Below are positions 5,474 to 37,455 of a DNA stretch of 43,125 bases, one piece after another. The stretch is from assembly GCF_001870905.1 (NCBI RefSeq), contig NZ_LNDC01000022.1, positions 255 to 43,379 of the forward strand. The letters are read 5' to 3'. Within the stretch, counting starts at the first letter, position 1; each line of letters starts with the position of its first letter. The stretch comes from Geitlerinema sp. PCC 9228 (lineage in GTDB: Bacteria; Cyanobacteriota; Cyanobacteriia; Cyanobacteriales; PCC-9228). Below the pieces are notes generated by a model. It saw nothing but the letters and a program-made list of their open reading frames with translations, had not been told where the DNA came from and did not search any database. The position numbers and the translations under genes are program-made.

Positions 5474-5545
5474 ATACCAAATCCGATGTACATAAACCCA
5501 CAAAAATTTTGTAGGGTCGATTCGCGAATCGACCCTACACCAGGA
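5474..5545. repeat. Palindromic intergenic repeat with a 30-bp perfect palindrome
   Basis: Positions 5510-5539 form a perfect 15+15 palindrome, with half-site TGTAGGGTCGATTCG and its exact reverse complement. It is preceded by ATACCAAATCC at 5474-5484. A related left part recurs at 5649-5691 without the palindrome. This is the form of dispersed intergenic repeat common in cyanobacterial genomes; there is no coding potential. It lies just downstream of the hydrolase gene. Confidence 0.75.
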
Positions 5546-5648: not shown

Positions 5649-5691
5649 ATACCAAATCCAACATGAAGAAACTACAATTTTTCTGTAGGGT
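5649..5691. repeat. Truncated second copy of the 5474 repeat, abutting a MITE-like element
   Basis: ATACCAAATCC, then a diverged middle, then TTTCTGTAGGGT, align with 5474-5517 in the same order and spacing. The copy stops at GTAGGGT, 3 nt before the MITE-like element that begins at 5695. A palindrome arm therefore seems to be lost, or separated, where the second element starts. Confidence 0.5.
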
Positions 5692-5694
5692 GTA

Positions 5695-5814
5695 ATACCA
5701 TTTCCTTAATAGTCTGCAAGAAATAATAGGGGCATTTTTGTAGGGGCGCAACGCGTGAGCGCCCCTACCAGGGGAAGGAAATCCCAAAAAATCATTGTTT
5801 TTCAGAAATGGTAT
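5695..5814. mobile_element. MITE-like element, copy A (120 bp)
   Basis: The element is bounded by 10-bp terminal inverted repeats, ATACCATTTC at 5695-5704 and GAAATGGTAT at 5805-5814. Its centre is an inverted repeat, GTAGGGGCGC ... GCGCCCCTAC, around an ACGCGT core. Between the ends it matches copy B (6113-6229) closely, including CTGCAAGA(A/G)ATAATA and TTGTTTTTCAGAAATGGTAT. It has no open frame of its own. Terminal repeats, about 120 bp length and multiple copies in the window suggest a non-autonomous element mobilised in trans, or a remnant of one. Confidence 0.8.
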
Positions 5815-5839
5815 AAAGGTAGGCACGGGAGTCTTATCT

Positions 5840-6587
5840 CTAACATCGGGCTTCATATAAAATAAAACTGTATCCTACCCAATCCACGACAATAGTAGAA
5901 TCTAGGTAGGTTTCCTTGAAAACGGCACCAAGTAAATGCGCACGACTAAATCGAACAGTATCTAAGTTTGTACCTTCCAATTCTATTCCAGGTAAAATTG
6001 CATTAGTAAAGTTAATTCCTCGCAAGCCAATATCCCGCCAAATCAAATTTGAATTGTCATTTTTTTCTAGCTGTTGACTATTTCCATTTCCGAGAATAGA
6101 AAAAATAGAATTATACCATTTCCTTAATAATCTGCAAGAGATAATATAGGCATTTTTGTAGGGGCGCAACGCGTGAGCGCCCCTACCAGGGCAATTTACC
6201 ATACAATCGTTGTTTTTCAGAAATGGTATAATTTCTTCCTTTTCTCGCAATTTATTTTGGCGATCTTGTGCTTCTCTTTGCTGACTTTGTTCGTTAATCA
6301 CTTGAATTTAAACTTTCCGATTTCTCTTGAACTCGGTTGTAGTAATATGCATCAAAAAGCTTCTCCATTTCTAGGAAAGAAATATTTTTATCCTAGATTA
6401 ATTCTAGTAATTGATATTTTCAAGTTGCTGTATATCCATTTTCTTTTAAATAAATCAAATCTTCAAACTGTTGGATTTTGGCGATATGAGAAGCATTCCG
6501 ATCGTTACTAGACTCTCCCGATACCGGCACAATCTCATTTTATTCGATAGGAGAAATTTCGCTATTCTCCCTAGACTTTTCTGACAT
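5840..6587 (-). pseudogene. Decayed pentapeptide-repeat protein gene interrupted by a MITE-like element
   Basis: A minus-strand reading frame starts at ATG 6587 behind AAAGAGGGGG and encodes MSEKSRENSEISPIE. It then meets in-frame stops of all three kinds (TAA, TGA, TAG). Between the stops it still reads as a helical protein (QQFEDLIYLKENGYTA; FDAYYYNRVQEKSESLNS). A one-base shift is needed near 6300 to continue into VINEQSQQREAQDRQNKLRE, after which the element at 6113-6229 is inserted. Past the element come pentapeptide-like repeats: IWRDI GLRGI NFTNA, then NLDTV RFSRA HLLGA VFKET YLDST. Stops, a frameshift and an insertion together make a functional product unlikely. The original protein was probably a coiled-coil plus pentapeptide-repeat protein of unknown role. 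Confidence 0.65.
6113..6229. mobile_element. MITE-like element, copy B (117 bp), inside the pentapeptide pseudogene
   Basis: It has the same termini as copy A (ATACCATTTC at 6113-6122, GAAATGGTAT at 6220-6229) and the same central GTAGGGGCGCAACGCGTGAG core. AATT flanks both ends, which may be a 4-bp target duplication or simply an extension of the inverted repeats, since AATT is its own reverse complement. It interrupts a minus-strand coding remnant, which is direct evidence that the unit inserts as a discrete element. Confidence 0.8.
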
Positions 6588-9055: not shown

Positions 9056-9263
9056 ATTAGTATCCTCGTTTTTTTCTCTGTTAGGGAATTGGAATGGTTA
9101 GCAAGCCTGCGTAGAATGAGCTGTTGTTCTTCTTCTTTTCAGCTCTACTCTGTCTTAAGCTTGTTAACTGCTTGCATCGTGGCATGGGGATTTTGCGTTT
9201 GGCGTCACCCTGAGGGGGTACTCTTGTTTTCCTTGAGGAAGGGAATCAGTTTGAGGATGTTTG

Positions 9264-9386
9264 CTAGAATTTCTTTAAAAGTTTGCAATAAATAATTGAG
9301 GTGTTCCTGTAGGGGTGCCTTACGGAGTAGCCCCACAAGGAAAATTGGGATATTTCAGAAAAATCATTGTTTTTTAGAGATAGTAT
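9264..9386. mobile_element. Diverged MITE-like element, copy C (123 bp)
   Basis: It aligns end to end with copies A and B in the same orientation: TTTCTTTAAAAGTTTGCAA near the left end, a central GTAGGGGTGC ... AGTAGCCCCAC, and AATCATTGTTTTTTAGAGAT close to the right end. The terminal repeats have decayed (CTAGAATTTC and AGAGATAGTAT), so it is an older insertion. It lies in the spacer between the minus-strand cluster and the LuxR gene, upstream of the first cluster gene. Confidence 0.65.
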
Positions 9387-9863
9387 GCAATATTCCCGTA
9401 CTGGCTGGTGAAAAGACAACTGACTGCCTTATCTACCCTGGTGGAATGGAGTTGCTTTTTACGTAAAAACACGCAAAAATAAAACTTTTAGCAAGAAAGC
9501 ACGAGAAAATTTTGCGCAAAAATACGTGAAATATTGAAATATCCGTCAAAAAGTCAAATGAAAGCGAAAATTAAGTCGCTTCTGGTTTTTTCTAAGGTTC
9601 ATCTTTCTAAGTAAGTTTTTGTTGCCGATGCTGACGGTCTAAATGCTTGATTTTAGGAAATTTCAATGGTTGGTATGTACTTGATTTTTATTTTGTCGCT
9701 CTTTTTGAGATTGTCCGGATGGCTGTAATTTTCACAGACAGACATAAATGTATGGTATGGCGAATGATAGCTTGAAGTTGCTTCTATACTGGTAAATCTA
9801 TAAGTCTAGAGAATATTTGATGAATTTTTTGATTGATGAATTTTTCCAGATTATTTTCTTTTG
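9387..9863. other. AT-rich divergent intergenic stretch with no gene seen
   Basis: The stretch between the element at 9264-9386 and the putative LuxR promoter has no plausible coding frame on either strand. It is AT-rich with short direct repeats, for example GATGAATTTTT at 9818-9828 and again at 9835-9845. It may carry operators for the two divergent transcripts, but I cannot define a site. Confidence 0.5.
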
Positions 9864-37283: not shown

Positions 37284-37455
37284 ATACCATATTTGGAAAG
37301 ATCTAAAAAAAAATTTCGTTTTTTTTAGATCGAGAATGATTTTCTGGAATTTTCCCATTCTCCTGGTAGGGGCGCTTCGCGTTGCGTCCCCAGCTTGGGA
37401 AACGCCCCTACAAAAATATCCTGATTATTTCCTGCAGATTTTTACGGGAAAGTAT
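37284..37455. mobile_element. Diverged MITE-like element, copy D, reverse orientation (about 172 bp)
   Basis: Read on the plus strand it matches the reverse complement of copies A and B: ATACCAT at 37284-37290, AATGATTTTCTGGAATTTTC, CTGGTAGGGGCGC, CGCCCCTACAAAAAT, TTATTTCCTGCAGATTTTTA, ending GGGAAAGTAT at 37446-37455. It is longer because of an inverted-repeat insertion near the left end (GATCTAAAAAA ... TTTTTTAGATC at about 37300-37330) and an altered centre. It lies 83 nt from the 3' end of the tRNA gene. Confidence 0.6.

Follow-up and report, generated by a model that had tools for sequence, protein, structure and literature searches.

The window, a 43,125-nucleotide stretch (C22:255-43379) of the 4.80-Mb, 223-contig draft genome of Geitlerinema sp. 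PCC 9228, holds four copies of a short repeat with inverted ends, here called A to D (Table 1). All four copies of the MITE-like family that the original prediction placed here are present, with coordinates that shift only slightly: the terminal A and T in the 10-bp ends first described belong to a TNA target duplication, and the element proper therefore runs from TACC to GGTA. Copies A and B have perfect 10-bp ends, ATACCATTTC/GAAATGGTAT, and are 88% identical over the whole element (blastn) and 94% identical over the first 82 nt. Their description as a nearly identical pair overstates this a little: the closest copy found to A lies on contig C99 and differs in gaps only, and those closest to B lie on C111 and C173. 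Copies C and D are diverged, and D is inverted, as predicted. Both match the nhmmer family profile (E = 1.3e-16 and 9.3e-18, respectively); C shares 76% identity with the consensus and has the ends TAGAATTTC and GATAGTA, and D departs from the consensus by an insert of 18 nt in the hairpin and by an AT-rich palindrome of 33 nt in one of its arms. The palindrome is a small insert at 37300-37332 (GATCTAAAAAAAAATTTCGTTTTTTTTAGATCG). A matching duplication at the two sides of copy D was not seen. In the surroundings of copy B, a 153-aa frame on the reverse strand (5840-6301) with pentapeptide-like repeats (GINFTNAILPGIELEGTNL) stays open through the element; when copy B is taken out, its flanking parts fall in different frames, and this frame is probably a gene remnant.

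Table 1. Window coordinates of the four repeat copies and their associated features.
Feature	Coordinates	Strand	Basis or remark
MITE copy A, TACC...GGTA, 118 bp	5696..5813	+	ends, blastn, duplication analysis
Left TAA target duplication of copy A	5693..5695		
Right TAA target duplication of copy A	5814..5816		
Central GTAGGGGCGC...GCGCCCCTAC hairpin of copy A	5740..5768		
MITE copy B, 115 bp	6114..6228	+	
TTA left of copy B, mismatching the right side	6111..6113		
TAA right of copy B, mismatching the left side	6229..6231		
Central hairpin of copy B	6158..6186		
MITE copy C, diverged	9265..9385	+	TGC on both sides, 9262-9264 and 9386-9388
MITE copy D, inverted, diverged, two internal inserts	37285..37454	-	profile match

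The window copies belong to a family that occupies about a hundred sites of the genome. The pattern TNATACCATTTC occurs at 119 sites (63 + 56) and its reversed control at none. A genome-wide search for the 10-bp ends, which the original prediction had put forward as its check, gave 20 places with both exact ends 85-115 nt apart and none for the reversed pattern. From these counts against empty controls, the copies have in common both the ends and the hairpin, not the hairpin alone; the opposite outcome set out with the prediction, copies sharing only the palindrome and lacking consistent ends, did not occur in this genome. With copy A as query, blastn found 42 places at E <= 1e-14. For the copy set, nhmmer hits of at least 20 bits were merged into 108 elements, and we kept 78 non-redundant ones with both ends close to those of the model and with sufficient flank; the stretches analysed amount to less than the whole genome, and copy totals are lower bounds. 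The family has terminal inverted repeats, TACCATTTC/GAAATGGTA. Its copies are 106-168 bp long, mostly about 121 or 140 bp, which leaves no space for a transposase gene, so that the 78 copies with both ends make up a short, multi-copy element that encodes no transposase. As had been predicted, the window likewise has no transposase with matching ends, the transposase searches giving no match on its contig. A search of plasmids gave no match to the MITE, and the left-arm pattern is present in this genome only among 40 genomes, this one included.

Insertion at TNA targets is recorded in the flanks. TNA flanks the element on either side in 55 of the 78 copies, and 44 of the 55 have matching middle bases (22 TAA, 18 TTA, 3 TGA and 1 TCA). 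Shuffling the right-hand bases gives a mean of 21.9 equal pairs, and 0 of 20000 shuffles reach 44. The family thus makes a 3-bp TNA target duplication. The middle base differs in the remaining 11 TNA/TNA copies, including B (TTA/TAA), which could reflect exchange between copies or insertion error, and 23 of the 78 copies are missing TNA on one or both sides. Equal triplets are found in 17/24 copies at 95% or more identity to the consensus, 18/25 at 90-95%, 9/24 at 80-90% and 1/5 below 80%. Copies nearer the consensus keep them more often, which fits insertions of different age, and this decay, together with the spread of divergence, bears out the earlier suggestion of repeated activity over time.

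These insertions lie mostly outside genes, through target choice or selection. Of 49 testable insertions, 8 fall in a frame free of stops for 100 codons or more, compared with 578 of 781 control positions at the same loci; the test used 49 of the 55 TNA/TNA copies, the other six having short flanks. At one locus on C101 (L005, 1368-1623), a copy is inserted at TGA inside the right end of an older, diverged copy.

The centre of the element is its most changeable part. Exact GTAGGGGCGC...GCGCCCCTAC hairpins number 42 in the genome, and most of them were judged by eye to coincide in position with listed ends. In a tally of 80 rows, in which copy B was entered twice, TAGGGGCG is present two or three times in 14; such copies are mostly 139-140 bp long compared with 121 bp, the gain being a 19-bp half unit. 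There are two loop types, AACGCGTGA and TTCGCGAA, which are also mixed within one copy. As an inner module of variable make-up, the central hairpin appears to grow by tandem copying of the 19-bp half unit. Copy A folds better than shuffled sequences, as RNA or as DNA (z = -3.26 and -3.83), as would be expected of a palindrome of this kind. In the fold, GTAG pairs with CTAC inside the stem, and the unpaired GTAG beside a stem that marks GTAG REPs is not seen. We accordingly rejected a REP/RAYT reading of the hairpin, as the GTAG is paired and the duplications sit at the ends of the element.

A second MITE-like family, which has TACCAAATC...GATTTGGTA ends and a GTAGGG hairpin of its own, is represented by pieces at 5475-5539 and 5650-5692 of the window, and copy A appears to have inserted next to or into one of them. 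A genome search with one member of this second family gave 53 matching pieces, and related ends (TACCAAATTTC) occur on IS630 relatives. On C103 (L082, 75000-79500), near 2249-2360 of the locus, a second-family element lies just inside a first-family TAATACCATTTC end, apparently a nested insertion.

The genome contains two broken IS630-type genes, the remains of a likely partner of the family. On C99, a TAATACCATTTCCTTAAAAGAATGCAA end lies directly before a broken gene that starts MSGVSKIQIAESPETLQKRMKQQ and has a MITE copy inserted in it. The second, on C98, is a truncated relative, an N-terminal piece of 135 residues that scores 59.9 bits against the NCBIfam IS630 model, below the cut-off of 100, and matches helix-turn-helix domains. 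A search of the genome for the DDE_3 domain gave no hits, which indicates that this assembly contains no intact mover. As to an insertion sequence with the same terminal repeats, which the original prediction had proposed to look for, the MITE left end is common to the C99 remnant, but the right end is preserved in neither local remnant, and no intact copy is present. The similarity between the MITE arm and the IS end extends past the 9-bp end, with shuffles scoring as high in 12 of 2000 cases for the C99 gene and in 1 of 2000 for its relative in a Halothece MAG (L139). This relative (81% identical) has TTATACCATTTCCTTCAAACAATGCAA before its ATG and provides an empty site, GAGC-TAA-TTCAATGG, against GAGC-TAA-[MITE]-TAA-GCCAATGG on C99. 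Filled and empty sites, which had been proposed as a check, agree on a TNA duplication (44/55 identical, one empty site); the empty MITE sites rest on this one case because the comparison genomes are no nearer than the same order. The MITE-like character originally suggested is borne out by consistent ends, target duplications, the absence of room for a transposase, a mostly extragenic setting and a genomic IS that shares the left end.

Relatives of the transposase piece at E <= 1e-15 occur in 172 of 388 genomes of the order, this one included, and two intact relatives of the partner are IS630 transposases (NCBIfam IS630, 241 and 195 bits; cut-off 100) with a DDE_3 domain. The closest intact IS found are only about 53-55% identical over the first 133 residues. 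In 14 other genomes, IS630 relatives, several of them intact, carry TACCATTT-like ends. We selected 32 IS loci in these genomes from 72 for clear ends, the others being the same places fetched twice, shortened, unclear, or of the TA type (G196, and G011, TA-like by eye). All 32 have TNA on both sides, with identical triplets in 28. For instance, one genome (G261) contains nine 1142-bp IS copies with TACCATTTTTC ends, all nine flanked by identical TNA triplets. For six of these nine we found empty sites with a single TNA within 1 mismatch, their joined flanks occurring without a break at another place in G261 or in further genomes of its genus; for the other three none was found among the 30 loci read. 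By comparison, the relative in G196 reads TA-CCATTTGG...CCAAATGG-TA, without an outer TNA.

According to the portion of PMC2170065 available to us, IS630 and Tc1/mariner elements duplicate TA, and in the accessible text of PMC8533490 the TATA of Sailor is a described exception. The IS relatives flanked by TNA do not show the 2-bp TA duplication. Since TA is the duplication described for IS630 elements, TNA is the one unusual point of the family. A literature search for IS630 elements with a TNA duplication, which did not cover ISfinder, gave no paper on the subject by title.

Other explanations of the repeats are far less probable. If the shared unit were the central GTAGGGGCGC palindrome only, REP-like or a small dispersed repeat, the ends would be incidental. 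Such a reading would account for the matches in 28 other genomes of the order, most of which span the hairpin part only and none of which, with two candidates scored per genome, covers the whole element, and also for the GTAGGG hairpins of the second family. We consider it very improbable, as the ends vary no more than the hairpin does within the Geitlerinema genome, the duplications lie exactly outside them, most exact hairpins coincide by eye with listed ends, and the GTAG is paired in the stem with no unpaired tag. Spread of the copies by recombination or tandem duplication rather than by transposition has so small a probability as to be nearly negligible: copies sit on dozens of contigs with unrelated flanks and triplets of their own, and the Halothece relative shows a clean empty site at the place where the C99 IS630 gene carries its MITE, even though A and B are 300 bp apart and the unequal TNA of 11/55 copies is what exchange between copies would leave.

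The identity of the mover also has to be weighed. IS5/IS1031-like elements make TNA or similar 3-bp duplications, and the mover could be from this or another such DDE family, the IS630-like left end being a coincidence. TNA duplications are indeed unusual for IS630, and the genome has four DDE_Tnp_1 matches above cut-off, one of them, on C124, beside a MITE-like end. We nevertheless judge a mover of this kind improbable, because IS630 relatives with TACCATTT-like ends themselves show TNA duplications and the C99 IS630 gene lies directly behind the same end. The DDE_Tnp_1 transposases were rejected as movers: the end on C124 adjoins a coding stretch that we take to be ISAs1-like, and a second such end was not found with it.

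Comparison with known systems places the family among bacterial MITEs. Nezha is a cyanobacterial MITE with inverted ends, target duplications and a stable fold, and we liken it to the present family by description, not by sequence. The small dispersed repeats of Nostoc, reportedly characterized by Elhai in 2008, are said to be short palindromes found inside minitransposons and inside each other, whereas the hairpin here belongs to a longer element with ends. As far as the consulted part of PMC3733652 describes them, GTAG-tagged REPs are short cyanobacterial palindromes like this hairpin; in the present family, in contrast, the GTAG is paired within the stem, and the hairpin forms part of a longer element with ends. 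Bacterial type I MITEs, in the excerpt of PMC10969869 that we used, are like the present family small, non-coding and mostly intergenic, with inverted ends common to an IS (in the present family, the left end), target duplications and more copies than the parent. The family differs from them in its variable GC-rich hairpin with tandem half units and in having only remains of a parent. We take the type I/II wording from the section of PMC3542288 at hand, where the MITEs of Anabaena sp. 90, cyanobacterial and mostly intergenic like those described here, are classed as type II, no IS with matching ends being present in that genome, whereas here the left end matches an IS. The relatives of the partner resemble IS630/Tc1/mariner elements such as ISY100, as presented in the part of PMC2170065 we consulted, with one gene between short inverted repeats and a DDE_3 domain, but the duplication there is TA and here is a 3-bp TNA next to an element starting TACC.

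Based on these data, we propose that A to D are copies of a non-autonomous MITE. It very probably has its origin in an IS630-type insertion sequence bearing the same ends, and very probably owed its movement to that element acting in trans. Seen directly in the sequence are the ends of the element, its target duplications and one empty MITE site, together with IS630 remains that share its left end and IS630 relatives whose ends are of a like kind and whose target duplication is likewise TNA. From these features we infer that an IS630-type transposase cut and joined the element in trans, with a stagger of 3 bp. In such a model, the MITE would have arisen from the IS630-type insertion sequence, whose transposase would bind the TACC ends and, acting in trans, cut the DNA there; the excised element would then be joined to TNA targets cut 3 bp apart on the two strands, and repair of this stagger would leave the TNA duplication. 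Points that weigh against this reading are the lack of DDE_3 hits in the genome, the loss of the right end from both local IS630 remnants, the distance of the closest intact IS, the copies with unequal or missing TNA, and the departure from the TA of IS630 elements. Because only broken remains of the partner are present in this assembly, the family can probably no longer move.

The four window repeats, and with them about a hundred genomic sites, can thus be read as one ordinary MITE family with a likely mover. The kind of element is ordinary, and the TNA duplication is a feature for specialists. One possibility, which we regard as rather doubtful, is that a cyanobacterial branch of IS630, together with its MITEs, has switched from TA to a 3-bp TNA duplication with a TACC start, a change of stagger not yet described. 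If true, the strand-transfer stagger would have changed within a family for which duplication of TA is considered almost invariable. The TNA relatives and the TA relative in G196 offer a natural comparison for target choice and cut spacing in DDE transposases of the Tc1/mariner group.
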